A stretch of 64,000 nucleotides of DNA from Candidatus Undinarchaeales archaeon (GTDB taxonomy: Archaea; SpSt-1190; JASMDC01), in contig JASMDC010000013.1 in NCBI GenBank assembly GCA_030753015.1, forward strand, positions 1 through 64,000. Direction: 5' to 3'. A program made the translations under genes and the position numbers. The notes under the pieces were generated by a model that was not told the DNA's origin, did not search any database, and worked only from the letters and a program-made list of their open reading frames with translations. This document shows positions 3,160-58,348 of this stretch, piece after piece; the first letter of the stretch is position 1, and each line of letters starts with the position of its first letter.

Positions 3160-6036
3160 TCAGCCGCACGCACCGTCCCACACCCATCCGCTGGGATTGC
3201 GTGAGAACAGGATGGCCCTTTCTGCTGTGATGGAACGGATCGCCTCGCCCTGGACAAGAAAGGTTAACTGTAGCCGCTTCCATCCCTCGACACCTTCGGG
3301 CGCATCGCACATCCGTGCGTTCGTGAAGTGGAGCCGATAGCCGAGCTGTGTGGACGCCACGTACAGCGGCGAGCCGAGATCGATGAGAGCCTCTCCATCC
3401 TCGTCGAGCACCTTTCCCGTGATAGTGCTCTCGGCCATCACATCGTCCCCTCGCACCGTGACCATCACGTCGAGGTCGAAGCCTTGGCGTTGAAGGATCT
3501 GGTAGACGGGCTCAGCCTTCGTTCCGGGATCGCTCCCTTCTATGTCGATGACGGTGCGCATGGCCCCGACCACCGTGAGGAACGCCGTGGAAGTCCCGCG
3601 TCGGCCGAGGCGATTTACTTCTAGCGAGAGCGTCTGCCGGCCTTCAGTGAGCTCACCACGTATCACCACTGTGATGATCCATTGCCGGAGGCTCTCCACA
3701 TAATGGAGCGAGAACAGCTGAGCCTCGCCCTCGTCGACGGTGACCGTCACATCGTCGCGCACCAGATCGATCACAGGCATCTCCCCCTCGTCCAGGACCG
3801 AGAGGTAGAGACGTACGAAGACCCCGTCCCGCAGCTCGTTGCGTGTGATGGTCTCAGGTTCGACGCTCGTCAGCTTGGCACGGAAGGTGGACTCGTGGGT
3901 AGGGTACCAGACCATGAGACTGGATGTCTGGGCCGACACCTCGCCCTCATGCTTGACGATGAGGTGGAGCGGGTGGCGGCCAGGCACGAGATCGGTAGAG
4001 AACGAGCGGGGAATGGTCGCCTCTACCCGCCACTGGAGGTCCTGGCGATGCACTTCGAGCGAACGGCCGGGAACCTCGAGGTCCCCGATGTAGAGGGTGA
4101 GGTCCTCATCGCTCACGCCCGTGAGCACGCTCTTTCCCTGGTATCGTGTCATGAACTCGAGCGCTACTGTGGCCTCGCCCAGGGCGATGGCATCGGCCCT
4201 GATATGGTCAGGGATCGTCGATACGATGCGGGAGACGAGCTGTGGGACGTAGCAGCCCGTCGGAGTGCATAGCTCTCCCGGGCCACAGTCATGGAGGAAG
4301 GAGTTCGCCATATCGCCGCACATGCAGTGGGCAGGGCAAATCTCCCAGCTTGTCACGAAGGGGATACGCTGGAGCCCCACTTGCGCTGTCTTGACACCGT
4401 CACGCTCGATCAGCATGAAAGGGAGACCTCCCAGAGGGGCACAACCGAAGTCCTGGCAACGTTCATTGAATCCGCAGGCGTCCACGACACCGCCCTCGTC
4501 AGAGAAGCACAGGCATACGGGGTGCTGGTCGGAGCGAGGATGGCACGTGACACCCGGACCGATGCACGGCACCTCGAGCCCCTTAGACTGCAGAAGACCA
4601 TCAACACATACGCGGTCCAGGTCGGTCCCCCGCTCGCTCCTGGGCCGCCAGGGTTCGACGGTGATTGTCGTGAGATGGACCCCGTGCTCCTCGCCGCGGA
4701 AGACCCGCACCCTGAGCTGATATAGCCCGGGAAGGATGCTCTCGGGGAGGTCGAAACGGAGGTTCCCGCAGGGGAACGTGCGACGGATGATCGTGTTCAC
4801 GCCCAGGCCCGTGTAGTTGAGAAGCTCCACCTCGCAGCGCTCCCCCCGTGTGTTGATGAACAATCGTACGGATTCACCAGCAATATAGGAGGATTTCTCC
4901 ACGGTCACCGGGACAGGGATGTCGTTACCGGAGGATAGGAGGAACATGGAGCTCGTGCCATGGGCCGGGAAACCGTGGCGGTTGTACACCGTCGTGCGTA
5001 CAAGGTAATCTCCCACCGGCCATGATGTACCGGTGACCACCGGGACCTGAAGGCAGGATGGTGCGCGAACGGAGTGGACCTTTTCCCCCTCGTGATGGAA
5101 CTCGATCTCGCAGTGGTCGACGGCCGTGAAGAAGCCGGTGGACACCAGGATGCCCTCGCCACGGAAGAAGGTGTCCTCGGTACGCCCCCCACCCTTGCTG
5201 AGGAACACTTCGACGGGGAAGAAGGCCGGTCGTATCACCACGGTCCGGGTAGCATTGAGCAACATATCGCTCCCCGGTCGCCGCACTATGGCCTGGAGCA
5301 CCATCTCCTGGGGCGGGCACATGCGATGGTCGAATCCCGCACACCCCAGCTCCGCGTACGAGACGGGCAGTGTGATGGTCGTACAGTTGAAGCATATCCT
5401 GACCTCGGACCGTGCGGCACCGGAGTGATCGAAGAGCGCCCATACGGCCAGCTCGGCCTCACCGATGTCCGCAGTGATGATGTCGCCCACCGCGTACTCG
5501 TCGGCAGGGGTTGACAGGGGCATGCGCTCCCAGCATCTGTCCGAGCCATCGGAACAAGCGAGCGGGAACTCGATCCTCACGTCACGCTTTACCACCATTT
5601 CTGTCACGGTCATACCGAAGGTGGGGAGGTCGAAGCGTACGAACCGGCTTCCCACGTCCTCGTTCTCGTCCGCTACCAGGAAGCTCAGGGGCACGTGATA
5701 AACTGCGAGCCTCGGTCGGAGCGTGGCCGGAGAGAATCCGCCCGCGATCTGCACCGCGTCCTTGATGGTGACCAGCTCGAACTCGACACGGTCCACGTAC
5801 CGTTCGTAATCGCAAGTGCGCGTGTACACGGGCGAGAGCTGGTCACACAGCGCACTGAGCACACCGGGACGGGACAACTCCTCCATCAGGTCGGGAGCTA
5901 TACCCCGCAGTACGATACGGACCTTGTTGTAGGGGGTGTGTGTAACGTCCACGTACTCCTCGACCGAGAGGATGCGCGGTCCCTCGGCGACAGCTAAGGT
6001 CAGCAGGAGTGCTAGCACGACCATCGTTCGCCTCAC
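3160..6036 (-). CDS. Secreted Ig/macroglobulin-like Cys-rich protein (family C, copy 1), 958 aa
   Basis: I take the GTG at 6036, not an upstream in-frame GTG at 6045. The 6036 GTG overlaps the stop of B1 (GTGA) and is preceded at good spacing by GGAGGTG, of which the 6045 GTG is part. A signal peptide (MRRTMVVLALLLTLAVA) is followed by several beta-sandwich-like stretches resembling macroglobulin/Ig domains ('SWPVGDYLVRTTVYN', 'PGLYQLRVRVFRGEEHGVH'). A Cys-rich core at about residues 465-595 contains 'HPVCLCFSDEGGVVDACGF' and 'CPAHCMCGDMANSFLHDCG', then more beta domains. No transmembrane segment follows the signal, so it is probably exported and disulphide-bonded. It aligns along its length by eye with C2 (18,823-21,837). 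The order A1-B1-C1 and translational coupling to B1 point to a shared complex. No enzyme motif seen. Confidence 0.85.
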   Translation of the reverse strand: MRRTMVVLALLLTLAVAEGPRILSVEEYVDVTHTPYNKVRIVLRGIAPDLMEELSRPGVLSALCDQLSPVYTRTCDYERYVDRVEFELVTIKDAVQIAGGFSPATLRPRLAVYHVPLSFLVADENEDVGSRFVRFDLPTFGMTVTEMVVKRDVRIEFPLACSDGSDRCWERMPLSTPADEYAVGDIITADIGEAELAVWALFDHSGAARSEVRICFNCTTITLPVSYAELGCAGFDHRMCPPQEMVLQAIVRRPGSDMLLNATRTVVIRPAFFPVEVFLSKGGGRTEDTFFRGEGILVSTGFFTAVDHCEIEFHHEGEKVHSVRAPSCLQVPVVTGTSWPVGDYLVRTTVYNRHGFPAHGTSSMFLLSSGNDIPVPVTVEKSSYIAGESVRLFINTRGERCEVELLNYTGLGVNTIIRRTFPCGNLRFDLPESILPGLYQLRVRVFRGEEHGVHLTTITVEPWRPRSERGTDLDRVCVDGLLQSKGLEVPCIGPGVTCHPRSDQHPVCLCFSDEGGVVDACGFNERCQDFGCAPLGGLPFMLIERDGVKTAQVGLQRIPFVTSWEICPAHCMCGDMANSFLHDCGPGELCTPTGCYVPQLVSRIVSTIPDHIRADAIALGEATVALEFMTRYQGKSVLTGVSDEDLTLYIGDLEVPGRSLEVHRQDLQWRVEATIPRSFSTDLVPGRHPLHLIVKHEGEVSAQTSSLMVWYPTHESTFRAKLTSVEPETITRNELRDGVFVRLYLSVLDEGEMPVIDLVRDDVTVTVDEGEAQLFSLHYVESLRQWIITVVIRGELTEGRQTLSLEVNRLGRRGTSTAFLTVVGAMRTVIDIEGSDPGTKAEPVYQILQRQGFDLDVMVTVRGDDVMAESTITGKVLDEDGEALIDLGSPLYVASTQLGYRLHFTNARMCDAPEGVEGWKRLQLTFLVQGEAIRSITAERAILFSRNPSGWVWDGACG

Positions 6037-8108: not shown

Positions 8109-8356
8109 GGAAATAAGTATGAGTCCGGAAAAACGTATAAAGGCGTGGTTCACCCTGTGCGCTACCACGTCCTTTCGTTGACATGCGATGTGATTACCAT
8201 GATCGGTCCTGGCACCGTGCTCGTCGGCGGGATTGCCGGGATCCGCCTCCCCGAGCATGTGTGAGAGACGATGATGCAGGGTATAGGGCTCGTCCTGCTG
8301 AAGGTCGCCGCCGGACCAGCTTGGCGTTTTGTGGGTAGGTTGACCGCTTTCCCTGC
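8109..8356. other. A1-B1 intergenic region
   Basis: About 250 bp between the end of A1 and the start of B1. The part next to B1 contains its TATA box (CTTTATAC, 8135-8142). The rest is GC-rich, and one minus-strand frame happens to be free of stops (an upstream extension of B1), but its composition (His, Arg, Gly, Pro) and its absence from B2 argue against translation. I find no convincing RNA gene. Confidence 0.4.
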
Positions 8357-11300
8357 CTAGGACGGTCGATGATAGCGGATGTCCGTGCAACACCGCGTAG
8401 TGGCGTCGGAGAGCTCACAGGCACCGTCCTTCTCAACGATGCTGGGCATGAATCCCTCGGGGCACTTACAGTAGAGGTCGATGAAGCACCCGCCCTTGCC
8501 ATTGAGGCGCGACTGGCACGCACCACCGGTACACAGCTCCAGGGAGTACACCTGCGTGGCGGGTCCCGAGCAGCCCTCGGGGACCGGTCCCTCGGTGATG
8601 CTACCGTCATCGTCGGGGTGGTCATCTTTGTCCCGAGGATCGGTGCCTGCCTCTTCCTCGTCACCGTCGGAGTAGGTGTCCCCATCGGTGTCCGCCTTTT
8701 TCGGATCGGTACCGTTCTGGAACTCCTCTAGGTTGGTGAAGTCGTCCCCGTCGGGATCATCCGCTGAGTCGTCCACGTTCGGATTTAGGCCGTGGTGCTC
8801 CTCCCAGTCGTTGGGCATGCCATCACCGTCCGTATCCGGGTTCGGATCGGGCGGGAGCGGCGGCGTGCTGAGCGGGTCCAGAGGATCGCTGTTGGCCTGG
8901 ACCTCTTCGCCATCAGAGAAGCCGTCACCGTCGGTGTCCGGTTTCTGTGGATTGGTACCCTTCCTGAACTCGTCGATGTTGGAAAGGCCGTCACCGTCGG
9001 CGTCCTCACCAGCGTCGTTCCGAGTTATATCGAGGCTGTTGAGCTGCTCCCAGTCATCGTCCATCCCGTCATTGTCGTTGTCCGTGTTGGGATCCGGGTC
9101 ACCACCTGCGGGGTGGGAGGTCGGATCGAGCGGATCCGTCCGGGCCTGCACCTCGTCACCATCGCTGTAGTAATCCCCGTCAGTGTCCTTCTTCATCGGG
9201 CTGGTCCCGAGCTCGAACTCCTTGAGATTGGTGAGGCCATCACCGTCGGGGTCCTCGTTAGCATCGTTCCTTGTGGGATCGAGCCCGTTCTCCCGCTCCC
9301 ACGGGTCGTGCATGCCGTCGCCGTCCACGTCATTCGGATAGCTGTTCGGATCGTTGGGATCGGTCCCGGCTGTGATCTCGGCACCGTCGCTGAACCCGTC
9401 ATCGTCGCTATCGTCGTCGTTGGGATCGGTGCCGTACTCGTACTCGTCCTCGTTGAGCAGTCCGTCGCCATCGGGATCGAGCGTCGAGTCGTCCGTCTCC
9501 GGATCGAGGCCATTGTCCTCCTCCCAGTCATCGGGCATACCGTCGTCGTCGCCGTCCTCGCCACCGTCGCCGGGCCGTCCGCGCCGGCCCACGAGCCGGG
9601 CATCGGGGAAGTCCTGGATCGGCAGCACGCCACGGAACCACGGGAATCCGTTGGCGTCCTCCACGCCCACGTGGATGTAATAGGTACCCACGGTCGGGAT
9701 CGTGAAGCTCGAGTCGCTCTCGAAGGTCGTGCTCGACTCGGCGTTGGCATCCACTACAAGGGATGTCTGGGCCTCGCCCATGAGCTTGTTCTCATGGAAG
9801 ATGGAGATGTTGATAAGACCCTCGAAGTTGAGGGGCATCCTGTTCTTCGGCACCACAAGTGCCATCACGTTCTCGCCCACTGCAGCGGAGCCGCTGCGCG
9901 CGGAGTCATGGGATAGCTGGAAGAAGGCATCAGTGAAGTCCATCTGAGGCTGGACCACTGAAAGGCGTGCCTTTGGATAGGTCTGATCGCCAAGCCAGTC
10001 CTGGACAAGCACCTGTCCGGCCTCGGTCCACATGGTGATCGAGACACGGAACTCCTTGTTCAGGTCCTCGGGCGTGAACATTATATAATCGGTGGCCGCC
10101 TCGCCCACGGCACCCACGGCGATTGGATTGGAGCCGAAGTCCATGGTGTAGCGGTCGACCTCAAGGCCCTGACCATCAACGATACGAACCATCACCACTC
10201 CGGCGAACTCCGAGTTGAAGGTGTTCTTTACCTTGACGACAGCGCGCACCTCGGCACCGGGGAACGAGACCTGCTTGCCGCCCACGGTAGCAACCTCGCC
10301 ATCGAACAAGGCGTCCTCGAACCCGGGATCGCCCCTCTCGATGAGGAGCTGCATACCGGACACGAAGGGCGGGCTGAGGTAGGCCTGCTTGCCCATGACC
10401 GCAGCAGCACGGATGCGCAGACTGCCCCTGTTATCTGAACCCAGCATGAGAGTCGTGATGGTCATCTCGGGCGTGTAGTAGAGCTTGGCCTTACCTGGGC
10501 CCAGTGCGTTCTCCCCATCCTGGTTCTGGTAGATATGGGCCTTACAGAACTCCCGCACCCGTTCCTTCACATCGCTCTCAGATGGCGGGTCCTTGCACTG
10601 GAGCTTGCGCTTGCAGGCACCCTCGTGCGTCTCCTTGTAGACCTTGATCTTGATGGTCGAGCCCGTCCTGAGCAGTGCGTCGCACTGGCTCGTCGATGCC
10701 TCGGGCATCTCTGCGGAGAGCACGAAGATCTCGGCCAGCTTGGTGGACGTGCACCGGTCGATCGGGACGTTGGCGGCCCCCTTGTACTTACCACCGGGCG
10801 AGGTGAGCTCGTACTCGATTGATGCCTGGCATGAGCTCGACACGTCCTTCACGGTGATGTTGAGGATGCGCCCGTTGCCGATATTGATCTGGGAGTACTT
10901 GCCCAGCCTGGACTTCGTCAGCGAGAGCTCGCCACCGGAATCGCACGTGGGCTCCTCGGAACAGATCTCTGCGCCCTTGCTCACCGATGAACCGTACTCG
11001 TCGACGAGGTCGAGGTTCACCGAACCGGAGAACGGGGACGTGCCATCGTTCTTGATCTTGACATATCCGCGGATTGGCTCACCCAGGAACGCCCGACGCT
11101 TGCCTTCCTCGCCAGCGACCTCGAACCCGGCGCCCTGGACTATGAGGGATACACCGGATCCGATACCGCACTCAGCGGGATCGATCTCGTAATAGCTTGG
11201 TGTGCACTTGCACAGGAAACCCTCGCCCGAGGATGTGGGCTTGTTGATGAGGTTCTCGCAGTTGTAGCGCTCCACACAGCATTGATAGAGTCTCTTGTAG

Positions 11301-14300
11301 TAGTCGTCGGAGTTGGGGAGCTGGCAGTCGATGGCCTTCCCGGTCCCGTCAGAGACCGCAGTGCCCTCTGGATCAGACTCGGAAGCACAATAGCATTGTC
11401 CGGAGACCGTGACGCCGTCCTTGGTGACGACCGCCTTGCAGAAGCCGTAGAAGAGCTGGCGCTTCTTCTCCGGGATCGAGAACTTGTTGCATGCGTCCGT
11501 ACAGGTCTGTGCGGATGTCTGGCCTCCGCTAGCACCACCCTCATTCTGGTAGTCGAAGCACACCGGGTTGGGGAAGAGCCGGCCCAGATCGTCGAACAGG
11601 GCAGCGAGGTTGCGGTAGGCGTCGATGAGCTTTGGTGCTCCCGCCAGGTCCTGCTTGGATGTCGTCTTGAGGCCGAAGCTGCAGAGCATGGGCACCTCCT
11701 TGGGGAAGGAGGCCGTGACGTTGAAGTTGTTACGGTCCTCGACGGTGAGGAACGGCATGTCCTCGCCCGTGCACCCACGCTCGTCGCACTTCACGCACGC
11801 CTCGAGCTCCCCGCCGGCGACCTTTTGGGTCTCGCAGGTGTAGATGCAGTTGCTCGGATCCAGGGTGATGGCGCTGCCGTCGACCTTCTTGATACCGTAC
11901 CCGGAGATCTCGCCCTGGAAGTACGGCTTCCATGCCTTTCCGTCCCAGATGTCAGACGGATAGAATGGATAACATCCGGCGTCCTCGTCCCTGATCTCAC
12001 CGTTGCCCTTCTTGTCGTAGAAGGAAGGTGTGTCCTCGTTACCGTCATTGTCGTGCATATCGTCGCAGGTGACACCGGCCTTCAGGCCTGCGTAGAAGCA
12101 GCCCTTGTTGTCCTTGTCCTCACAGAAGCACTTCTCCCCGCCACGACCGTCGCGCCACGGTGTGATGCGGTAGGGCAGCTTGTTCTTGAGGTTGAGCCGG
12201 TAGCGGAAGGCAGCGTCCCAGAGGGCGCTGATGTTCTGCGGGTAGGTCTTGTCCTTGGCCACATCGTTGAGCGTGTAGAATGTGTCGAAGGTCCCCTCAT
12301 CGGTGGTCACCTTTGTCGATTCGGTACGGTAGGTGTCCTGGACGATCTTGAAGTATCGCTTGTCGAGGTCACCGATGATGGCCATGACCAACTGCTTGGT
12401 CATGATCTCGAAGTCCTGGGAGGTCACATCAGCGAAGGTGTTCTCCTGCATGGTCTCCTCGACCTGCTGCTGGAGGTCCTTGAGCTCAAGACAGTACTGA
12501 GCCTTGCGGGCCCACGCGGCCGAGGGATTGTCCATGGGCTGGCAGTCGCAAGAGTACTCCTCGGGTCGGCTGGACTTGTCCAGGCACTCGAGCCCTTCTA
12601 CATAATGGCCCATCTTGACCTGGAATTCGATCTGGTGCCGGATATAACCGTCAAGGTAGTCGATCATCTTGGTGAGCTTGACGCCCACGTCGCAGGGATC
12701 GTCTGTGGCAGGGTTCTGGTCGCCGATGGTGAACTGTGGCACGCCCTCGTCGGTGACCGAGTCGGCGTTCACGGTGAACATTCGCATGCCGAGCGCCGTG
12801 CAGGCGTTCTTGGCCTTGAGCACATCCCGGATGCACTTCTCCACCGCAGGGGTGTGGGGTATCACGGACCGGGAATTGAAGAGGTTATCCAGTGTGCTGT
12901 CGGGAAGTGTGCGCCACTCCTGGTCGATCGCGACACCGGACGAGCTGGACGCCATCTCCGTGGAGGTAGCGAAACACGCGCTCCCCTGCGTGTAGAGCGG
13001 ACATCGCTTGAAGGACGAGTCGGAGAGCCAGGCCTCGCCGATGGGAGTAGGCCTGTAGAGCTCGCACACGGGCAGGGTGCACAGCTGAACGGCCATCCGG
13101 TAGTCCACCTCGTCGGCGAGCTTGCCACGGATACCGTCCCTGTTGACGCCCTTGTTGATGATATCGCCGATAGCGAAGAACCGCTTCTTGTCCTTCACCT
13201 GCTCGGCAGCAGGATGATTGTCCAGGAGGGCCTCGTGCAGTGTCTTGCGGCCTATCTCCATCCGGTAGGTGGACGTTGTGATCTGACAGCCGCCGTAGGT
13301 CGTGATAACGCTATCGAGCAGACTGTTGCAGCTCTGGCACTGCTTGTTCAGTGCCCCCTTGAGATTGGCGATCGTCGTCTTGATCGTCTTGAGGAAGGTC
13401 ACACGGTCATCCATGTAGGACTTGATGTACTCGAGGTGTGCCCGCTTATTGGCGTGGACGAAGGGATCACAGGTCCCGTCCTCCTTGATGAGACGCCGCT
13501 TCTTCCCACCGCCGACGTCGACACAGTCGTCACCCTCCGTACATGGAGCGGGGCCGACGATGGCCTTGCGGTAGGCCGCGGCGAACGAGGAGTCCATGAC
13601 GATCTGGGCTGAGATCGCGTCCTCGGTACACAGCTTGGAGCGCGGGTCGCCGGACGCGAAGTTGCACTCCTTCTCGATGATGACCTCGCTCTTCTGCCCG
13701 TCGGTGCACACGCCGGCCGTGTTGTCCGTGGGCGTGTTCATTATCTCGTCAGCGAGCTTGGACAGGTCGGGCGTGTTCCCGAACCGGTACAGCTCAGCGC
13801 TGTACTTGAAGAAGGACTGGGTCCAGTCGACGCCCACCGAAGGATCGATCATCGAGCTGGTAATGACGATACCGCGGTGGATGACGTTCTTGTTCTTCAT
13901 GTACTTCAGGCCACCGGAGACCATCTTCTTTCCAAGACGCTTGGCCGCGTGTTCAGCAGCCTCCTTGATGGCGCTCTCGCTGGCCTCCTTTGCCGCTGCT
14001 TTCGCCACCGCCTTCCAGGCGCGTTGGCCTGCCGCCTTCGCAGCTTTCTTCGCGGCGGCCTCGGCGGCCTCCTGCGCGGCCTCCTTTACAAGCTGTTTTG
14101 CCACCCGTTTCGAGCCTGCTTCGACAAGCTCCTTGGACAACAGCTCGGCAGCTTCCTTTGCGGCCTTCTTCGCAGCCACATTGGCCGCATGCTTCACGGC
14201 CCACTTGGGCGCCACCTTGTTGATAAGACCTCCCGCCACCTTCGTCGCTCCCTTCTTCACGGCACCGCCAACGGCATTGGTAGCGGCCTTGTGGATCTTT

Positions 14301-16714: not shown

Positions 16715-17018
16715 CCGCCCGTCCTTTTTAAACAAGACTTTTTACCCCCTTACAGTTACGACAGATAGTTCTATCTAGTTGATATTATGGATTGTGGAGT
16801 TTAAATAGTTTTGCCAAAGCACGCTGCGTGCTTCTCTCCGTCCATTTAGAGAAAATACAAGGTTTATTTGGATCCTTTCGCCTGAAACGCTCTTTTTACG
16901 CGAATTCTCGAAAGCTGAGGGCGTTTTTCATTTCGCTACGTGGCGCAGTTCGCTCCCGTCGACGTTCAGGGACGGCGGGTGCCGTTGTATATATAGTTTT
17001 CGGGAGGACGGAGAGGCC
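16715..17018. other. Divergent intergenic region A1 / nth with perfect inverted repeat
   Basis: About 300 bp of control region. For nth the TATA box is TATATATAG at 16988-16996. For A1, candidate TATA elements on the minus strand are CTATTTAAAC (about 16,799-16,808) and GGTAAAAAGT (about 16,739-16,748). Between them AAGCACG-CTG-CGTGCTT (16,817-16,833) is a perfect 7-bp inverted repeat with a 3-nt spacer, a possible operator just upstream of the distal A1 TATA. No gene is evident. Confidence 0.4.
16988..16996 (+). promoter_or_regulatory. TATA box of nth
   Basis: TATATATAG, 23-31 nt before the ATG at 17019, fits an archaeal promoter giving a leaderless or nearly leaderless transcript. Confidence 0.55.
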
Positions 17019-17717: not shown

Positions 17718-17744
17718 GAACTCTCGGCCTCGGCGAACACCGTC

Positions 17745-18818: not shown

Positions 18819-18822
18819 ACTC

Positions 18823-21837: not shown

Positions 21838-21839
21838 GT

Positions 21840-23933
21840 TCAACACCTCTTGACCCTGTACACCGGTACGTACCCACGGGTCATGTTGACCGAGAACACC
21901 GAGTTCATGATGACATCCTTTGTCATGTCACGCTCGATCTCCGAGACCTCCGCGAAGGGCTTGACCTTGTAGCCGATATTGCCCGCAAAATCGCGGTTGG
22001 GGCTGGCCAGCAGGAGATAGTTACCACCCAGGACCTTCTCGAAAACGTACCGTCCGTCGACGTCCGTGTTGGTCGTAAGGTACTCGAGGCTCGTGTTGAG
22101 AGGAATGAGCTGGACGGTTATGTAAGAGGGTGGCATCCCTCCGATGAAGCCCAGCCGCTTGAACCGTCCGCGGTCGCCCTCCTCGCACCCTCCCGGATGG
22201 ATGATCGCCTCATCGGACGGAGAGTAGCAGTGGAGTTTCGCGTCCTTCTGACAATAGATTGTCGTGTTGACCATCACGGCCCCTTCGACGCGATAGTACT
22301 CGCTCAGGTGGAGGTCGAGGGTCCCCGCAGGAAGGGCCAGCTTGGTACGGAGGGGTGCGTACTGTTCGATGTACTCGCCGCCGGGGATGACACGCACGTC
22401 CCTGATACCGCACGGGACATCGTTAATGGTGACGTCGGGCGTTGTGAACCGTGCTCGCTTGTCCTTGCAGGGTTCTACTATGACCTCGCCCTCCCGCGGC
22501 CCGTGGATGCGCACGGAGAGCGAGCACCGTCCAGCGCACTCAAGGTCGAACTCGTCGTTGAAGGTGGTCGGGAGGGTGATGTCCGTCTTCGCCTCGTCGC
22601 CGAGCTCCAAGTACGGGTAGATGACGAACCTGAACTGGAGAGGCTTGAGAAGGGTCGAACCGCCCAGGATCTTGCCTGTAGGCAGGAGGTCGGTGATGGA
22701 AACCTCCACGGGGAAGCTCGCCGAGTAGTTAGCCTTGTAGGATTTGTAGCGGTTCCCGGCAGAGCAGCTCTGGAAGCACCCCGTGTCCTTCTGGGTCTTA
22801 CCCTCGACCCGGAGGTTGTCCTGCTTGCTGTTGAGAGTGAGGTTGAGCTGAGGATAGCACTCGTCCATCCCACCAATGAGGCTCTTGAAGTTCCAGTTGA
22901 AACCCTTCATGAACCCAAGCACATCAGCCTCGTTTGCAGGGTCCATCTCGATGACGAGGTTGGCGTCAGCGAGGTACTTGAGCATCATACGCTGGTACTC
23001 CTTCGTCTGGGCCTTAGAGGAGAAGATCGTCGTGGCCACCACCACATCATCACCGAACGAGCCCTTGATGCTCTTCGCGTCGGAGCCCTTGGCCTCGAAG
23101 GGGATGTAGATCTCCTTCTTATCACCTGGCAGACAAAAGCCGAAGTGCGGTTTTCCGGTTGTATCGGGGAGATTGAAGGGTTTGCAGATGTGCTGTGTCG
23201 ACGGCCGGGGGAGACGGAAGTCCTGATTCACTATATAGTCGATCCAGAACTCGATCTTCCGGTACCAGGGGTGTGAGACCCTCTGGTCCGATATGGGAAT
23301 CGTGTACCGGTCGTCCTTCTGTGCGTAGAGATGGACGAACGCGTACGCGAGCTTGCGGAGGCGGAAGATACGCAGGGGGAGGTTGACGTCGAAGCTGAAT
23401 TTGAGATCCCCCTCGATGTCGTTATACTCGAGCTTTATGGGGATATTCACCTTCACTTTGACGAACATGTCCCCCACCTGGAGGTCCTCCTCGCCGATCT
23501 CGATATGCTCACCCTCGATCTCGATCTGGGAAACCCGGTACTGCTTCTTCTTGACGAGATTGTGGAGGTTGCTCTCGATGCGACGCGCGATCTCGAACCG
23601 CAACATACGCTTCATGGCGTCCTCAGTGGGGACGTTGGTAACCTTTCCTTTGTAGAAGAACACGGGAAGGCCGTGGTAGTTGGGTTCGGGTATGTTCTCC
23701 GCGGTGAAGCCGCCCGTCTGGCCAACAGCATTGGCGGCCTCGTACACGCTTGTGCGGACAATGTCGTCGACGATGCGTTCAATTTGCTCAGCATATTCTT
23801 TCAGGTTCTCTGGATCAGGATCAGGTCGCCGAATCTTCTGTTCTTCCTGGAAATAGTATATCACAAAAATAATAACGATTGAAATGGCCATCAGCCCAAT
23901 AAGTGCCATCTGCGCACGGGTCCGAGGCGCCAT
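21840..23933 (-). CDS. Pilin-like-anchored ectodomain protein (family B, copy 2), 697 aa
   Basis: ATG at 23933; a TATA-like TATTTAAG block on the bottom strand at about 23,960-23,967 sits in the short gap after A2 and implies a promoter of its own. The N-terminus 'MAPRTRAQMALIGLMAISIV' is again basic, then RA/Q, then a hydrophobic helix, consistent with a class III signal or anchor. Shared with B1: 'GGFTAENIPEPNYHGLPVFF', a 'RMLRFEIARRIESNL' helix, 'FPVEVSITDLLPTG' and 'PLQFRFVIY'. The C-terminal carboxypeptidase-regulatory-like domain has 'DGRYVFEKVLGGNYLLLAS' and 'AGNIGYKVKPFAEV'. Middle Cys residues ('GCFQSC') occur where B1 has 'CPDPQCACC'. Followed at once by C2. Role unknown; the matching architecture suggests the same partner set as B1. 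Confidence 0.85.
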   Translation of the reverse strand: MAPRTRAQMALIGLMAISIVIIFVIYYFQEEQKIRRPDPDPENLKEYAEQIERIVDDIVRTSVYEAANAVGQTGGFTAENIPEPNYHGLPVFFYKGKVTNVPTEDAMKRMLRFEIARRIESNLHNLVKKKQYRVSQIEIEGEHIEIGEEDLQVGDMFVKVKVNIPIKLEYNDIEGDLKFSFDVNLPLRIFRLRKLAYAFVHLYAQKDDRYTIPISDQRVSHPWYRKIEFWIDYIVNQDFRLPRPSTQHICKPFNLPDTTGKPHFGFCLPGDKKEIYIPFEAKGSDAKSIKGSFGDDVVVATTIFSSKAQTKEYQRMMLKYLADANLVIEMDPANEADVLGFMKGFNWNFKSLIGGMDECYPQLNLTLNSKQDNLRVEGKTQKDTGCFQSCSAGNRYKSYKANYSASFPVEVSITDLLPTGKILGGSTLLKPLQFRFVIYPYLELGDEAKTDITLPTTFNDEFDLECAGRCSLSVRIHGPREGEVIVEPCKDKRARFTTPDVTINDVPCGIRDVRVIPGGEYIEQYAPLRTKLALPAGTLDLHLSEYYRVEGAVMVNTTIYCQKDAKLHCYSPSDEAIIHPGGCEEGDRGRFKRLGFIGGMPPSYITVQLIPLNTSLEYLTTNTDVDGRYVFEKVLGGNYLLLASPNRDFAGNIGYKVKPFAEVSEIERDMTKDVIMNSVFSVNMTRGYVPVYRVKRC

Positions 23934-23959
23934 CCCAAGAATGATTAGGGCACTTGCAG

Positions 23960-23967
23960 TATTTAAG
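23960..23967 (-). promoter_or_regulatory. TATA box of B2 in the A2-B2 gap
   Basis: CTTAAATA on the minus strand, 27-34 nt before the B2 ATG and inside the 42-bp gap between A2 and B2. It would let B2-C2 be expressed separately from A2. B1 has the equivalent element at 8135-8142. Confidence 0.5.
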
Positions 23968-23975
23968 GTTAAGCG

Positions 23976-26900
23976 TCACCCGGCGCGCGAAGCGTGGCAG
24001 GGGACGCAGCAGGTGGCCGTCTCGGCAGAGAGCTTGCTGCCATGGACCGTCTCTTCGATCCGGGGCGTTATCCCCGTTGGACAGAAACAACCTTCGATGC
24101 GCATGTACCTGCCGCCGTTCATGTCCTCTCGGGTCATGCATGCACTGCCGGTGCAGTAGACAAGGTCGTACCGGTTGGAGGGCGGATCGTCCGGACAGGT
24201 GACGTCCACAGGAGCTTCGTCAGGCACTGACGTGTCCGGGACTCCTTCTTGGGTGCCCTCTTCGGCTACCTCCCCCTCCGGCACCCATGCGGGAGCGTCC
24301 TTGAGGTCGGCGAAAGTGCTCGCCTCGATCGTCCCCTCCGGCACCTCAAGATCGCCATCGTCCTCCCAGGCGTCCTCGACCGGAGCCCCCTCACACGGGT
24401 GATCCGCGGGAACGTTGAGCCGTGTGCGTGCCGCCGGTCCCGGCACTAGTCGCCACGGGATGTCGTCGCCACCAACTGCCCGGATATGCGCTCGGAACGT
24501 TCCCTGACGCTGTGGGCGCACATTATTTGATGATAATAGGACATCACCGCCACCAGCGTCCACGGTGATGTGGGTACGGGTCAGTCCCAGCACAGTGCCG
24601 CTCCGCTCGTGCAGAAGCCCTACCTCAACAGTACCGGAGAAGCTGGCGGTCGTGGGATTCTCAAGAACGACGTTCACGGATACCAGATCGCATGGACCGA
24701 TCGATGCAGCTCGCAGCGACTCGGTCTCGTCAACGAAGGACACGTCCGTCGCTATTAGGGTCGGTGCGACCACTCTGATCCCAGGACCGCCGGTCTCATC
24801 GAGCACCGGGACGCCAAAATCGTTGACTACCGTGACCTTTGCTCGTATGCGTTTCCCAACGTCCTCCACTCGCACGTCATGACCCTCGCCTTCCACGGTG
24901 AAGGACTCCCCGGGTGGGACTCCCGCGACGGGGATCGCGTCAGTCGTAATGGCGCGTCCGCGCTCGTCGACCACGGCGACGGTGACCATCGCGTCCAGGG
25001 GGCTGTTACGGTTGTTCCTCAGGACCGCCACGGGATACACCCTCGCGCCCACAGTGGTTGCACCTTCGCTCACGTCGCCCTCCATCCGTGCCTCGTCGAG
25101 CCCGGGCTGTCCAAAGGCGACCCTGAGTGGCGTGCCCAAGATACGCTCTTCAAGGACCGAGCGCTCGCCCGTCATCGCTGACATCCTTAAAGCGAGGGTC
25201 GCAGCCCCTCCGGAACCGAGCAGGCTATCGCTCACCGTGGTAGGTGTCGTACACACGACGACGGTGTCGCCGGACGACAGTATGACCTCGTCAACAGCCT
25301 CTTCACCCTCCACAAGGCCCCGGCGGTCGACAAGGGCGGACGTCACCGTTCCGCGGAACTGGCCCATACCGGTGTTCTCCAACTCCGCGCACCCGACCAC
25401 CTCCTCATCGAAGAAGGCCCGGTGAGGGCCATCGGGTCCCACTGGCTCTCCCTCCACCTCGAAGATGGTGCTAACCACCCGCAGGTCGGAGAGCTCGTCG
25501 CGGACAGCGTCCGCCAGGTCCACGTCCAAGGGGCCCATGCCGTTGCACAAGCACGCGAACCGTCCCTCCTGGGCGTTGAACGCGTTCGTGAACCCTCGGC
25601 ACCCGTACTCGTCGCGGCAGTACGTCTGCAATGCTCGGTACACGGCTGCGCCTTGCGGAAGTGGGCATGGTCTGCCCGTATGGACGCCCACGGGATCGTC
25701 ATCCCAGGCACAGTGGCACTCGCCCGCTACGGTACCATCAGCGGATACCGAAGCGCGACAGTAACCGTAGAGGCTTCCCGGGACACCACCGGGCGAGCGG
25801 AACATGCTACATGCGTCCTGGCACGAGACCGCCTCATGCACGCGCTCGTAGGGATCCAGACCTCCCCCCTCGATATCGAAGCATTCCGGATCGGGGAAGA
25901 TCCGGCGGACATCTAGTGAAGCGATGGACGCGATGGTCGCCTGGAGCAGTGTCCGACGTGCGATCTCCCGCCCACGGTCAGCGGCCTTGAGCGAGCAGAC
26001 CATGGGTATCGGGCCGGGATAGCTGGCGTTGATGATGAAAGCCGTCCGGTCGGCCAGGGTGTCGAACGGATAGGGATGCTCGACATCGCAATCGACCGGG
26101 TTCACCGACCAGATCTCATCGGGACATCGCACGCAAGCAGGGAAAGTACCCTGTTCGTTCGGTCCGGTGGTGGGATTGCCGCAGGCGAACGTACAGCTTC
26201 CCGGGACGATACCCACACCCTCGTCACCGAAGACCGCGCCGTTGGCCGTAGCCAAGGGTCTGTCGCGGAGCGCGTCAGCGATCCGATCGCCCAAGCACTG
26301 CTCGTCCAGCTCACCTTCGGCAGTGCATGCCGGTGCTCCGCGTTCGTGGATGCCCTGGAAGCATCCTGTGTCGTCACCGCCCGTGCACTGACATTCACCG
26401 TCGAGGAGCGTCGCGAGGACCCCTTCGTCGTACTTGGGAGAGAGCATGAACGGTATCTGCTGGTCGGCCTCCACGACAATGTCGTGCGCGATGTCCCAAA
26501 GCATTCCTACAGGAGCGACGGCATCCTCGCTCACTGCGTCAGCTGGCATGTCCCGATAGAGATCGCGTAGCAGGTCAGCCGCTCCCGGCTCGAGGTCGCC
26601 ACGCGCGGCAATGACGAGCTGCTCGAGGAGGAGGCTGAAATCATCTAGGATCAGGTCGGAAGTATCCGCATGTGCGGCCGCCTCGAACAGCTTGGCAGCC
26701 ACCTCGCCGTTCTCGAAGGCCACGCAGGCATCATGTCTGGGCTTCCAGAGAGCGACCAACGCGCGATAAGCATCATCGTTGCCCTGGCCGGATTCGGGGA
26801 ATGGAACGCACGCGCATGGATCCATGTCAGGATAGGGCGCGTTTGCAATGCACCTTGACGCTTCCTGCATTCGTTCCCACCCTGCGTCCATCCCCTGCAG

Positions 26901-29900
26901 TGTTGTGAGATAGGCGTCCAGGAACGTGTCCATCTCGTCCAGTCGCTCGATAGAACCGCAGGGATTATCTGTGCCTTCTTCCATGATGATGGTGCGTAGG
27001 TTGGCCCCCAGTTCGGCGGTGGGTGCGCCGTTCCATGTGACGTTCGAGGTGAAGACACGCAGACCGCGCAGTGTGCATGCGCGCTTGGTACGGAGGACGT
27101 CGCGGACGCAGGTCGCGATACCCTCGGCGCTGGGTGCCGGCTCGGTACCGGGTGCACCGGGGGCGACTGAATCCCCTTCGGTCATGCAGGTCCCAACACG
27201 GGTAACCAATGGGCACGCCTCTACGTCGAATCCCTCCCACTGCGTGCATGTGGCCGTGCAGAGTGCGGCAGCGCTAGCATAGCTGAGACCGTCGGCGAAG
27301 TACACGGACAGTCCCGCTTCGTCGTGGTCGGCGATTGCGTTACCGATAAGTGGCGGGGCGTCCTGGTCCGTGCTCGTGCATCCTCCATAGGTCGCCCCGA
27401 GCACGCGGACATCGGCCAGACATCGTCCGCACTGCTGTTCGAGGACGTTGCGGAGCGCAAGCAGGTCGTCGCGCACGCGCGAAAGGAGCGCACGCCGCGC
27501 CCGCAGGTAGCCGTCCAGGTACTCGAGCCTACTAACCTCGCTCTCGTGGTGGAAGGATACGCACCGGCCGTCCGGTAGAACCCTCAACACATCGTCAAGG
27601 CACTCCTCTTCCGGATCCCCATCCCGGCAGGGCTTTGGGGACCGCATGGCCGCGTCCTGGAGCTTGCCGAGCTCGTCGTCCGGTGACACGGGTACCCACT
27701 CGCCATCGCACACGGCACGGTCGGCCCCCTCACCGCATCTCGGGGTGATATGGACCGCGTCGTTGCCCTCGGCATCGCACACACCGGCCACCGCCAATGG
27801 CAGGGTTGCTCGCTCCCGGTCCCGGAACCGTGCTCCGACAGCACCGCCCTCCGGGGCCAGCCGCCACAGGTCCGCCGAGTACGAGAACAGGGGCTGGGTC
27901 CAATCGAGGCCATAGCCCTTGTTAAGGCTCTGTCTTGCGATTCCGCGCCAGGCACTGTAATGGAGCGCCCGCTGACGCAGGGCGTGCTTGGTCATTCCTG
28001 TCGCCGTACCGATGGCCAATCCCATGTCCTGAAGCACTTCGGTGGCTGTGAGAGAGGTCGCCTTACCCATCACGTCAAGCCCACCGTCCAACGCCTGGGC
28101 GTTCACCTTCTCGATCGCTTCCAGGACCAGGTCCCGTGCTGCGGGCTGGCCGCCGGACAGCGCTTCTCTCGAAAAGACCCGCTCGAGCGCCTCCCGGATG
28201 GGGCCGATGAAACCTACGCTCCCGAGCATGTCTATCGCTGCACGCTCGGTGATACCGAAACGAAGGGCGATCCGCCGGCCGGTCCGCTTGATATGTGCCT
28301 CGAGGAGGATTGCATTGAGACCGTCCACCATCTCACGTTGGAACTGCGAATGGGCCGCCGCGGTTGCCTCCTCGAACGCCTCAGGTGTCAAGGTCTTCCC
28401 GCCCCGCGCCATGAACTCCTTGTTGAGGTGCTTGGCATAGATCGCACCCGTGTCGATGGACGGGAGGAGCTCGTCCAGGTAGCTGTACGTTGCCGCACGG
28501 AGCGTTTTCCCGTCGGAGAACCGGGAGACGAGATGCCTCAGGTCCATGTTGTTCGCGACCCCCTTCAGGGCCGAGGCCCTGCTGACCATTCCTGGAGGAT
28601 ATTTACGTGAAAAGAACTCGACCTGTGCGTCGAGCATCTTCCTGCTCAAGGTTGCCGGATCGCCTGCGAACGGGCCCGCCTCTTTCGCTCCTTTCGCGAA
28701 GGCAGCTCGTGCCTGCTTGAAGGCCTCGTCACCTATCCGCTCTTTTAGCAATAACTGACCCTCGGGGCCGATAGCGTCGAACCCTTCACGAAGGAGTAGG
28801 TATTTCGTCCGTTTACCTGTACCGGTCACCGGTCGCGCGAGGATCTTGCCCAGCCCTTCTGTCATCTCTATGGCCACCTTCTCCACGTTCAGTTCTGAAA
28901 GTCCCTTCCCGATGGTCCGGCCGATATCGATACCGAGCTCCCTGGACCCTAAAGGTAACCGTTTCGGCATGCGTGCGTTCATACCAGCCATGAGAGCGGT
29001 GGCCTGGTCGACCGAGAAACCTATGGTATGGAGCCTTTCGGCCACGGTCGCCCATCCATCGCCGTCCAGAGCATCGAGATGACGCAGCGCGTCATCCGTG
29101 AACTTGAACCATCCGCCCTGCTTTGGAACAGTGAATGCACCATTGTCCCAGATCTCGGGTACAAGGGTCGAGGGGGACCTGAATGTGTACCTCGGTGGAG
29201 CTTCCATACCCCTGCGCATCATATCGTCAAGACCCCTGCCCATGCGCTCGGCCAGTTCCCGCTGCACGTCGTCGGCAGGCTCTGCAAGGATCAAGCGCGC
29301 TGTGTCGAGGGCGGATCTGGCGGTCTCACCGGCCGTCACCTTGACCGCGAACTCCCCGGCCTCCCCTCCGGCCTCCTCGGCAAGCTCTTTGGCTGCCCGT
29401 CGCACCGAGTTCGCGCCAGCCGTCGCGGCCCCTTCGGTCACCTCCATCCCGAGCCGGGTGGCGACCTTGGGAGCGTAGTGCGTGAGCAGATAGCTGCCCG
29501 CACCGCCGACCTTCGTGTTGATCCGCATAGGGAGATAGTAGGGGCTCCGTGCCAGATACTGGGCCGCATCGGTGCCCGCTTCCGTCGCGAGCTTCCCATG
29601 CCCCGTGATCTCGGCGACCGCGCTGGCCGCCCCTGCGGTATAAAGCAGCGATGCCCCGTGGCCGAGGAGCTCGCCCGTGCCGGACTTCGAGTATCCACCT
29701 GTGTAGAGGTGCATGCAGTACCCGTCATCGACGCCTGGCAGCGCTTGGTCCGACTGGTGGTAGAGCAGATCGGCCATGAGGGCCGGATCGAGCTCCCGGA
29801 AGTACGGATTCACCTGCTCCTCGCCGGCCCCTACCAAGTCGGATACGACAGGGTAGGTAGTACCCTCGTTCTCCACGTGCTCGATGATGGACGTACCCCG

Positions 29901-32087
29901 CCCCGAGACCGCCGTACGCTCCAGCTCGCGGATGGTGTAGAACCATGGCGGACTGCCCGGAGAGAGCGGCTGCCCTTGCCGGTCGGTCGGTGTCCACGCT
30001 CCCTGCTCGTCGAGCACCTCGATGCCGTCGGTCCCACGGGCTAGGACGGGGCCTCCTGCAACGGTCACGATGACCGGCTCCTCGTCCGGCGCGGTGCACG
30101 TCGTGATCACACCGAAAACGAGGGCCTGGACCTTGGCAGGATCGGGTACCAGCTCGTGTACTATGCGGGATTTGAACGAGCTCTTGTGCGTGGAGTCCAA
30201 TAGGACCCCGGTCGCGCCCCAGAGGGCTGTCTGAAAAGTCGTATCACGCTCCGATCCGCCCACGGCCAATCTCCCGTTGAACGAACAGGCACCCTTCTCC
30301 CTGGCATAGGGTCCGGATTCGCACAGCTGCCGCATCACGTCCAGGATGGCCCGGTCCTGTGGGCCATCATCATCAGCGGCGAGCTGGTTGTGCGGGCACG
30401 CGAGGTAGGAACGGGATGCCAAGTGCACCTTCCATGGAAGCCCGCGCGCACCCTTGGCCTGACGCTGAGTGACCGATGTCCCGTCATCCCCGAGCGACAT
30501 GGAGGCAAGCAGTCCACGGGGGCAGCGTGCCAGCGCCTCCTGATCGAGCGTGCCGTCATCCTTGCGGAAGCTCGGTCCCAGCACCAGCGCCACTCCGATG
30601 TCCACTGAAGCCCCCGTGACGCTATCTCCGCCATCGGTGATCTCGACCTTGCCCCCGTAGCGGTGGGCCATCGACAGGTCATGGGACGAGAATTGCTCCA
30701 GCATCCAACCAGCCGGACCGGCGCCGATGGTACCGGTGTTCCTGTCCAGGGCGCACGAGCGCATGCAGTAGAGACCGAAGAACATCCGAGATGCCGCTTC
30801 CGCCTGTTCCTTCTGTTGAAGACCATAGGAGCGGATCGCTTTCTCTCGCGTTGTATATTCAATTCTTGATACCGCGTCCACACCCGGAGTGTCTGTCAAC
30901 CCTTGTCCTACTGTGGCACCGGCCATTCCCAGATCACGGGTCAAATAGAACCAGGGCATCGCCTCACGCAGCGCGCCCTCCATCACTCCCAGGGCCTCCT
31001 GGGACATCCTGCTCCGGACGATCTGGTGGCCGAGGTTGTTCTCGTAGCAGTCAATGGCGAGGTCGAAGCACGAGGCGCAGGCGTTGTCGTCCTCCAGGAC
31101 ACGTCGCACCTGGTCACGGCACCTGATGAGGGGCGAATGGGAGATGAGCGTCTCCAGCTCAAGTACGTATCGTCCCAGGAGGTCGGCCATGAGCCGTGTC
31201 TTCTCGGCGTAGCATTTCCGTCGTCGCTCGGTCGCAAGGCCTTCGCACTTGCCCACGTGTATGGACACTCGGGGATCCATCAAACGCAGCATGCCTATGG
31301 CGTCTACTGACCGTGCGGCCGTGAATACGACCTCCTTCGCGCAGTGAGCGGTATCACAGGTCGTGGGGTACTGGGGACAGCTACAATCCTCGGCATTATC
31401 GGCGCACGCATCGCACTCTTGGCACCTGCGGGCGAGCGAACCGTCATGCCAGATCAGGTCCTTGGCACGCCGTGCGGTCCATTCCGCGACATCGAGGTCC
31501 CCGAACGCTGTGTCGAAGCCCTTCGTGAATATGTCATATCTGGTAACCTTGAAGTCGCAGAGGTTCTCTGCAGGCGTGAGTTCGGTGACCGCAGTGAACT
31601 CGTCCTTCAGGTACTCGGCCCGCAGCATTTCACCAAGACAGACGGGCACTCCATAAAGAGGCGTGCTCTCTGTGAAGGACCATTCGGCGCAGAACCGTCG
31701 GCCGTCCGGATCGAGGATATCACCTGCGTCGCACACGAGCACGACATAGGCACGGTCCACGTCATCATACGCTAGCTCGTCGATGGTCACGAACGATGGG
31801 ACCACGTCCATATCGAGCCCGAGGGCTTCGGATAGGATGAGGCCGCTCTCCTTGTCGTCCCCTTCCGGAAGGAGCCCGTCCGGGAGTACGAGGACACCGC
31901 CCCGCGCCACCTCCTTCATAATGTGGGCTGCGGTGTCGGCCGTCAGCTTCCTTCCAGAGAGGGCCTGTCGCCGCAGGTCTTGGCAGCTCGCCCCATCAGC
32001 GAGGGCAGGCAAGGTGACGAGAAAGACTATGAGAAGGAGTCCGAAGGCTCGTGGAACAAGACATCTCGGAACAATTTCCCCCCCCAT
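23976..32087 (-). CDS. Giant secreted Cys-rich protein with long helical insert (family A, copy 2), 2,703 aa
   Basis: ATG at 32087, followed at once by a run of G (eight in all counting the ATG's G). A signal peptide lies at about residues 9-31 ('AFGLLLIVFLVTLPALADG'). Conserved with A1: 'CASCFDLAIDCYENNLG' near 340, 'CMHLYTGGYSKSGTGELLGH' near 791, 'GLDWTQPLFSYSADLWRL' near 1,395, a 'TYGGC' site, long Cys-rich regions and the terminal Cys domain ('YDLVYCTGSACMTREDMNGG'). Between the YTGG and DWTQ blocks A2 carries about 560 residues of mostly helical sequence, against about 150 in A1. It lacks the TSP3 calcium repeats, having instead an acidic Pro/Glu-rich hinge. No anchor or catalytic motif is seen. 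It starts 27 bp after the PurM-like gene; a weak TATA-like CTTAATTC at about 32,113-32,121 may serve it. Confidence 0.85.
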   Translation of the reverse strand: MGGEIVPRCLVPRAFGLLLIVFLVTLPALADGASCQDLRRQALSGRKLTADTAAHIMKEVARGGVLVLPDGLLPEGDDKESGLILSEALGLDMDVVPSFVTIDELAYDDVDRAYVVLVCDAGDILDPDGRRFCAEWSFTESTPLYGVPVCLGEMLRAEYLKDEFTAVTELTPAENLCDFKVTRYDIFTKGFDTAFGDLDVAEWTARRAKDLIWHDGSLARRCQECDACADNAEDCSCPQYPTTCDTAHCAKEVVFTAARSVDAIGMLRLMDPRVSIHVGKCEGLATERRRKCYAEKTRLMADLLGRYVLELETLISHSPLIRCRDQVRRVLEDDNACASCFDLAIDCYENNLGHQIVRSRMSQEALGVMEGALREAMPWFYLTRDLGMAGATVGQGLTDTPGVDAVSRIEYTTREKAIRSYGLQQKEQAEAASRMFFGLYCMRSCALDRNTGTIGAGPAGWMLEQFSSHDLSMAHRYGGKVEITDGGDSVTGASVDIGVALVLGPSFRKDDGTLDQEALARCPRGLLASMSLGDDGTSVTQRQAKGARGLPWKVHLASRSYLACPHNQLAADDDGPQDRAILDVMRQLCESGPYAREKGACSFNGRLAVGGSERDTTFQTALWGATGVLLDSTHKSSFKSRIVHELVPDPAKVQALVFGVITTCTAPDEEPVIVTVAGGPVLARGTDGIEVLDEQGAWTPTDRQGQPLSPGSPPWFYTIRELERTAVSGRGTSIIEHVENEGTTYPVVSDLVGAGEEQVNPYFRELDPALMADLLYHQSDQALPGVDDGYCMHLYTGGYSKSGTGELLGHGASLLYTAGAASAVAEITGHGKLATEAGTDAAQYLARSPYYLPMRINTKVGGAGSYLLTHYAPKVATRLGMEVTEGAATAGANSVRRAAKELAEEAGGEAGEFAVKVTAGETARSALDTARLILAEPADDVQRELAERMGRGLDDMMRRGMEAPPRYTFRSPSTLVPEIWDNGAFTVPKQGGWFKFTDDALRHLDALDGDGWATVAERLHTIGFSVDQATALMAGMNARMPKRLPLGSRELGIDIGRTIGKGLSELNVEKVAIEMTEGLGKILARPVTGTGKRTKYLLLREGFDAIGPEGQLLLKERIGDEAFKQARAAFAKGAKEAGPFAGDPATLSRKMLDAQVEFFSRKYPPGMVSRASALKGVANNMDLRHLVSRFSDGKTLRAATYSYLDELLPSIDTGAIYAKHLNKEFMARGGKTLTPEAFEEATAAAHSQFQREMVDGLNAILLEAHIKRTGRRIALRFGITERAAIDMLGSVGFIGPIREALERVFSREALSGGQPAARDLVLEAIEKVNAQALDGGLDVMGKATSLTATEVLQDMGLAIGTATGMTKHALRQRALHYSAWRGIARQSLNKGYGLDWTQPLFSYSADLWRLAPEGGAVGARFRDRERATLPLAVAGVCDAEGNDAVHITPRCGEGADRAVCDGEWVPVSPDDELGKLQDAAMRSPKPCRDGDPEEECLDDVLRVLPDGRCVSFHHESEVSRLEYLDGYLRARRALLSRVRDDLLALRNVLEQQCGRCLADVRVLGATYGGCTSTDQDAPPLIGNAIADHDEAGLSVYFADGLSYASAAALCTATCTQWEGFDVEACPLVTRVGTCMTEGDSVAPGAPGTEPAPSAEGIATCVRDVLRTKRACTLRGLRVFTSNVTWNGAPTAELGANLRTIIMEEGTDNPCGSIERLDEMDTFLDAYLTTLQGMDAGWERMQEASRCIANAPYPDMDPCACVPFPESGQGNDDAYRALVALWKPRHDACVAFENGEVAAKLFEAAAHADTSDLILDDFSLLLEQLVIAARGDLEPGAADLLRDLYRDMPADAVSEDAVAPVGMLWDIAHDIVVEADQQIPFMLSPKYDEGVLATLLDGECQCTGGDDTGCFQGIHERGAPACTAEGELDEQCLGDRIADALRDRPLATANGAVFGDEGVGIVPGSCTFACGNPTTGPNEQGTFPACVRCPDEIWSVNPVDCDVEHPYPFDTLADRTAFIINASYPGPIPMVCSLKAADRGREIARRTLLQATIASIASLDVRRIFPDPECFDIEGGGLDPYERVHEAVSCQDACSMFRSPGGVPGSLYGYCRASVSADGTVAGECHCAWDDDPVGVHTGRPCPLPQGAAVYRALQTYCRDEYGCRGFTNAFNAQEGRFACLCNGMGPLDVDLADAVRDELSDLRVVSTIFEVEGEPVGPDGPHRAFFDEEVVGCAELENTGMGQFRGTVTSALVDRRGLVEGEEAVDEVILSSGDTVVVCTTPTTVSDSLLGSGGAATLALRMSAMTGERSVLEERILGTPLRVAFGQPGLDEARMEGDVSEGATTVGARVYPVAVLRNNRNSPLDAMVTVAVVDERGRAITTDAIPVAGVPPGESFTVEGEGHDVRVEDVGKRIRAKVTVVNDFGVPVLDETGGPGIRVVAPTLIATDVSFVDETESLRAASIGPCDLVSVNVVLENPTTASFSGTVEVGLLHERSGTVLGLTRTHITVDAGGGDVLLSSNNVRPQRQGTFRAHIRAVGGDDIPWRLVPGPAARTRLNVPADHPCEGAPVEDAWEDDGDLEVPEGTIEASTFADLKDAPAWVPEGEVAEEGTQEGVPDTSVPDEAPVDVTCPDDPPSNRYDLVYCTGSACMTREDMNGGRYMRIEGCFCPTGITPRIEETVHGSKLSAETATCCVPCHASRAG

Positions 32088-51830: not shown

Positions 51831-51858
51831 ATAGTTGTTACTACTAATAAGTAGTGGC

Positions 51859-58308: not shown

Positions 58309-58348
58309 GTATCCAAACTACATCAATAACTAGTAGATAGTGGAACCT

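Follow-up and report, generated by a model that had tools for sequence, protein, structure and literature searches.

The described systems closest to the genes considered here are the archaeal type IV pili, with their minor pilins and PilY1-like tip adhesins (Makarova et al. 2016, PMC4858521), the archaeal peptidoglycan hydrolases that kill bacteria, which are modular and carry cell-wall-binding domains (PMC12352652), and, for a single component, the alpha-2-macroglobulin/complement proteins. The genes in question lie in a 64,000-nucleotide stretch of a Candidatus Undinarchaeales archaeon (positions 1 to 64,000 of contig JASMDC010000013.1, assembly GCA_030753015.1), referred to below as the window, which contains two copies of a cassette encoding a giant exported protein (A), a membrane-anchored protein with a prepilin-like N-terminus (B) and an exported partner with a Cys-rich core (C). 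The open-access papers searched, which dealt with the surface proteins of DPANN archaea, with pili and with giant proteins, gave no description of a B/C/giant family or of the pairs of B and a giant that other small-genome archaea carry. Our analysis makes it somewhat probable that B and C provide a constant platform for the display of interchangeable giant disulfide-rich proteins, used in contact with other cells.

The resemblance to archaeal type IV pili lies in the prepilin-type N-terminus of B, in the large exported partner encoded beside a prepilin-type gene, and in an assembly-type ATPase beside one C-B pair together with A24 peptidase genes in the genome. The two systems differ in the size of B, which reaches ~600-700 amino acids (aa), in the Glu at position +5 that B lacks, in the giants, for which Pfam scans returned neither DUF2341 nor PilY domains, and in the scarcity of assembly genes, which most cassettes are without. 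We know of no counterpart of C in archaeal type IV pili. The likeness to the bacteria-killing hydrolases is an M23 domain in an archaeal exported protein, although here such modules are parts of giants of 1,900-2,100 aa that have a shared Cys-rich end and partner genes. C resembles alpha-2-macroglobulin and complement in its tandem immunoglobulin (Ig)/macroglobulin-like domains, as suggested by a low-confidence model, and differs in its added EGF-like Cys core and in the CGEQ thioester motif, which is absent from all 16 C copies.

A sequence-only reading of this DNA had recognized the six window genes, all on the minus strand, as two homologous trios of the same order and orientation, and this observation is confirmed. 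The A1/A2 alignment scores 256 bits (E 1e-71; 25-27% identity in blocks), B1/B2 432 bits (36% identity) and C1/C2 841 bits (42% identity), far above the best of 40 shuffled controls for each pair (27.3, 24 and 25 bits for A, B and C, respectively). Every sequence block that had been quoted as shared was recovered in both copies, and at each of the two B/C junctions the start of C coincides with or overlaps the B stop, within the last codons of B, as had been described. The starts adopted for A1 (16,714) and B1 (8,108) are internal to longer open reading frames (ORFs; 8357-16735 and 6033-8393, respectively) and were judged sensible. In predicted topology, A and C have only an N-terminal hydrophobic signal-like segment, and B has a single N-terminal membrane helix.

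The cassette had been taken to be present twice, which is wrong at the scale of the genome (3.85 Mb in 117 contigs). A genome search returned ~21 B-like sequences, on many contigs, and ~20 C-like sequences; 18 stretches around these matches were read. There are ~19 neighboring B-C pairs, scattered over the assembly. A proper occurs in three copies, namely A1, A2 and A3, the last of 3,114 aa and located on contig C74. In the clade of the window genes, which comprises B1, B2 and a third pair located on contig C26, the order is B then C; most other pairs have C first. Since the third pair has no adjoining A and A3 no adjoining B-C, the exact A-B-C order is confined to the window, which is consistent with a local tandem duplication. 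Distance matrices of B and C are strongly correlated over 16 loci (r 0.92) and within an 11-locus clade (r 0.90), a value reached by none of 9,999 permutations in either case. B and C have thus duplicated and diverged as pairs; because the copies are paralogues of one genome, the correlation reports paired duplication and is alone no proof that the proteins touch. This co-evolution and the signal-like N-terminus of C agree with the earlier proposal that C is an exported partner. The other nine genomes of the same phylum that were searched measure 0.6-1.1 Mb, versus 3.85 Mb here, a difference to which the multiplication of surface genes may contribute. As a marker for placing the organism, ABCE1 had its best named matches at 50% identity (Thermoplasmatota), under search patterns that bias the outcome, and we draw no taxonomic name from it.

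A giant Cys-rich exported ORF of 750-2,790 aa adjoins 12 of the 19 B-C pairs. Common to 12 giants is a C-terminal region of ~650 aa that is rich in Cys, ends in a Cys cluster and holds 39 invariant columns in an eight-sequence alignment. The A profile matches this shared end (probability 99.1, E 1e-18), and A1 and A3 also match part of it in hidden Markov model comparisons; it was found in no other genome searched. The parts upstream differ among the giants and include the modules given in Table 1, a variety that fits the suggestion of different targets for the two window copies. Inspection by eye showed the M23 active-site motifs HxxxD and HxH to be intact in two giants and the first His to be replaced in the third; the SLT Glu is intact and the NlpC/P60 domain lacks its catalytic Cys. 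The Kazal giant on contig C36 adjoins a C-B pair and lies outside the set with the shared end. One giant, on contig C39, holds a B ectodomain inserted in mid-protein, a fusion that links B and the giants. With the conserved part at the C-terminus and the variable part N-terminal or internal, these proteins do not have the layout of polymorphic toxins, in which a variable C-terminal toxin is followed by an immunity gene; no search aimed at immunity genes was made.

Table 1. Cassette genes of the window and modules of related giants on other contigs (modules are Pfam matches over curated cut-offs).
Feature	Coordinates	Strand	Description
A1	8357..16714	-	Giant exported protein, ~2,785 aa, 3% Cys
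B1	6033..8108	-	Prepilin-like, membrane-anchored, 691 aa
C1	3160..6036	-	Exported partner, ~958 aa; start at B1 stop
A2	23976..32087	-	Giant exported protein, 2,703 aa; A1 homologue without TSP3 repeats
B2	21840..23933	-	Prepilin-like, membrane-anchored, 697 aa
C2	18823..21846	-	Exported partner, ~1,004-1,007 aa; C1 homologue
Giant, contig C21			M23 + SLT
Giant, contig C41			M23
Giant, contig C53			M23 + NlpC/P60
Giant, contig C29			Three C-type lectin domains
Giant, contig C117			FG-GAP
Giants, contigs C36 and C39			Kazal

Within the window, A1 combines CARDB/Ig-like repeats toward its C-terminus with seven calcium-binding TSP3 repeats and a short Cys-rich tail. The TSP3_bac match (Pfam, E 8e-31) means that the statement that none of the three proteins belongs to a named family stands for B and C, which have no Pfam match over the cut-off and no NCBIfam family, and fails for A1. 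A1 and A2 are one giant subtype, differing in the TSP3 stalk, and because neither has a recognized catalytic payload, adhesion is the likeliest role, with a calcium-stiffened stalk in A1. The description of A as a large extracellular component gains from its signal-like N-terminus and from the related giants that adjoin B-C; that all three proteins belong to one apparatus is what we infer.

Archaeal prepilins follow a rule of Gly, Ala or Ser at position -1 and a charged residue at -2, with Gln at +1 in the EppA class (PMC4371748). The start motif of B fits this -2/-1/+1 rule and is combined with a hydrophobic helix, since [KR][GA]Q precedes the membrane helix in 15 of 17 paralogues and [KR][GAS]Q does so in all ten B homologues examined from other archaea. 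B1 comprises an RGQ motif, the membrane helix, a GGF motif, an FPV....D motif, a TTR-like end and a Cys near the C-terminus, and throughout the B paralogues an invariant Cys is the last residue or lies close to it. The genome contains four matches to A24 prepilin peptidase genes, and on contig C26 a T2SSE-type (type II/IV secretion) ATPase gene and a gene for an 11-helix protein are located directly upstream of a C-B pair. B looks prepilin-like by motif and topology, with putative processing, so that the proposed membrane-anchored base keeps its helix and is refined from a plain anchor to a prepilin-type protein.

Besides its signal-like N-terminus, C contains several Ig-like domains and a Cys-rich core; in C1, Ig/macroglobulin-like domains flank a core that is EGF-like. 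Fourteen Cys columns of the core are invariant across 16 copies, and the first six fit EGF spacing as judged by eye. Two further core cysteines are missing together in three copies of the window clade and kept together in the other 13, as would be expected of a disulfide.

The occurrence of B in other small-genome archaea further refines how this protein was first read. A search profile that mixed both kinds of B detected divergent homologues in 25 of 393 other archaeal genomes, all of 0.5-2.1 Mb. Of 31 B loci inspected in 19 of these genomes, 20 have a same-strand ORF of 1,000 aa or more directly after B, with a 4-base overlap between B and the giant ORF in 13; several of the remaining loci are cut by contig ends. 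Two of three such giants scanned carry fibronectin-III-like domains that score above or close to the Pfam cut-off, and all three have Ig-like or related matches in their first part. These pairs have the same B motif, a GGY block and, usually, the 4-base overlap at the 3' end of B; they differ from the present cassettes in that a genome has no more than a few copies of B, C is missing, and the giants, where scanned, start with fibronectin-III/Ig-like domains and show no detectable relation to A. Full-length relatives of C were not found in the 393 genomes, in a species-level genome collection or in viral contigs, and the C profile matched mostly single Ig/macroglobulin-like segments in the 393 genomes. 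Nine other genomes of the same phylum/class contained no B, full-length C or giant end. The pairing of B with a giant therefore extends beyond this organism; what is its own, as far as the searches extended, is C together with the shared giant end and with the expansion of the cassette.

From these elements a mechanism can be proposed. After export, B would be anchored in the membrane through its N-terminal helix, would probably be trimmed by a prepilin peptidase between [KR][GA] and Q, and may enter or be seeded on a type-IV-pilus-like assembly. C would be exported, fold as a disulfide-rich Ig/macroglobulin-like chain with an EGF-like core, and dock on its cognate B. The giant would also be exported, its conserved Cys-rich C-terminal region docking on B-C and the rest reaching outward, where it could bind sugars by C-type lectin domains, mediate protein or calcium-dependent adhesion by FG-GAP and TSP3, block proteases by Kazal domains, or act on bacterial peptidoglycan by M23 and SLT. 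The ~20 cassettes would constitute a repertoire, some of them with their own membrane-bound winged-helix regulator.

The putative regulators form a family of 330-365 aa proteins whose genes adjoin B or C, or lie in their vicinity, in five loci (L013, L014, L015, L018 and L025); the proteins have an exported N-terminal part, a membrane helix and a cytosolic winged-helix domain (DUF7343 in three scanned). They are likely membrane-bound winged-helix regulators, and each could regulate its own cassette.

The sequences show homology, gene order, the co-evolution of B and C, signal and membrane topology and the modular make-up of the giants; the complex, its docking by the conserved end, the display, the pilus link, the targets and the function at cell contact are predicted from these. 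Several results weigh against a B-C platform that displays the giants. Seven B-C pairs have no adjoining giant, some of them at contig ends, and three giants stand in tandem on one contig without B-C. Profile comparison related none of the giants compared from other archaea to A or to the shared end, and Pfam scans recognized no payload domain in A1, A2 or A3 except TSP3. For the pilus link in particular, Glu at +5, a feature of EppA-type and bacterial pilins that is not universal in archaea, is absent from every B copy examined; the assembly ATPase was not seen at other B-C pairs; and a TadC-like identity for its 11-helix neighbor is unsupported, as no Pfam family or TadC candidate matched. 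The structure models of B2 and C2, each built from a two-sequence alignment, reached predicted local distance difference test (pLDDT) scores of 39 and 41, respectively, so neither protein's fold is established, and the complement/macroglobulin-like matches of the C2 model in a fold search (template modeling score ~0.12) are a hint only.

Among other explanations, the one that survives best, which we consider unlikely, is an antibacterial or predatory contact weapon, in which the giants bring wall-cutting domains, B and C hold and deliver them, and the lectin and FG-GAP copies recognize targets. The intact M23 motifs of two giants and the intact SLT Glu suit this explanation, as do the pairing of M23 with NlpC/P60 in one giant, the M14 carboxypeptidase and SecA genes of the C41 M23 locus described below, and the precedent of archaeal M23 proteins that kill bacteria (PMC12352652). 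Wall-cutting domains are, however, restricted to three giants, one M23 domain lacks the first His, the NlpC domain lacks the catalytic Cys, and no such domain is present in A1 or A2. Since wall-cutting modules do occur in other giants, it is plausible that some cassettes serve an antibacterial or predatory purpose. Quite unlikely, in our view, is an S-layer-like envelope matrix, in which the giants and C would form a disulfide-linked coat with B as its anchor and the paralogues as alternative coats. Chains of Ig-like domains, high Cys content and a membrane anchor point in this direction, as do a weak match between C and the S-layer protein Sap (E 0.046) and fold matches of low confidence to S-layer assembly domains, but modules of enzyme, lectin or protease-inhibitor type, and giants of such diversity, would be odd for a lattice subunit, and the complement/macroglobulin matches rank higher, all coming from the same poor model.

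We regard it as improbable that a lineage-specific adhesin operon was simply duplicated locally, with generic shared domains and no mechanism common to the other B-C loci; the restriction of the A-B-C order to the window and the sharing of A with one other contig only would fit such a duplication, but B and C are homologous over their whole length across ~19 loci and co-evolve tightly. A binning artefact, in which pooled contigs of several organisms inflate the copy number, is highly improbable, for although contamination is estimated at 5%, the contigs that carry B-C pairs are numerous and mostly alike in G+C (0.56-0.64), and C is found in no other genome or collection searched.

Other features were noted near the cassettes. 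Contig C39 carries three tandem giants, one of them that with the inserted B ectodomain, and, close to a C-B pair that is intact, a truncated B of 499 aa. On contig C41 the gene run is giant(M23)-C-B-SecA-x-M14 carboxypeptidase, with the SecA-like ATPase (823 aa; L026:3779-6250) lying 72 bp downstream of the B gene and matching SecA_DEAD (E 1.8e-121) and three further SecA domains. SecA is generally held to be absent from archaea, and a search of 80 other archaea gave weak, partial matches only. Four small Cys-rich exported or lipoprotein-like ORFs, three of them mutually related, stand in a row at L027:6205-8704. In the window itself, positions 58340-64000 on the plus strand, continuing to about C22:65437, encode a giant protein that matches Peptidase_C25 (E 4.7e-60), is gingipain-like and has Ig-like domains; transposase-like genes are located at 40938-42512 and 57365-58213 (DDE_Tnp_1; rve integrase), and a short DUF4135 (lanthionine synthetase-type) match at 51835-52638 lies beside a methyltransferase gene.

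Overall, the interpretation offered by the sequence-only reading is partly supported and considerably extended. A display platform of B and C that presents exchangeable giants may, in a wider reading that we hold only tentatively, belong to a previously undescribed archaeal surface-display system, whose two-gene core of a prepilin-like B and a giant is spread among small-genome, DPANN-like archaea and in which this 3.85 Mb archaeon would have gained C and ~20 cassettes with exchangeable adhesive and peptidoglycan-acting payloads, a repertoire with which to attach to and attack other cells. The cassettes fit among pilin-like anchors with large surface partners, and there is a real chance that they deserve a category of their own. 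How small-genome archaea recognize, hold and perhaps kill partner cells is little understood, and the present analysis supplies concrete, testable parts in the form of a B family with its giant neighbors and a repertoire of ~20 cassettes with wall-cutting and sugar-binding modules, through which a collection of "hypothetical giant proteins" becomes a modular set with a conserved end.
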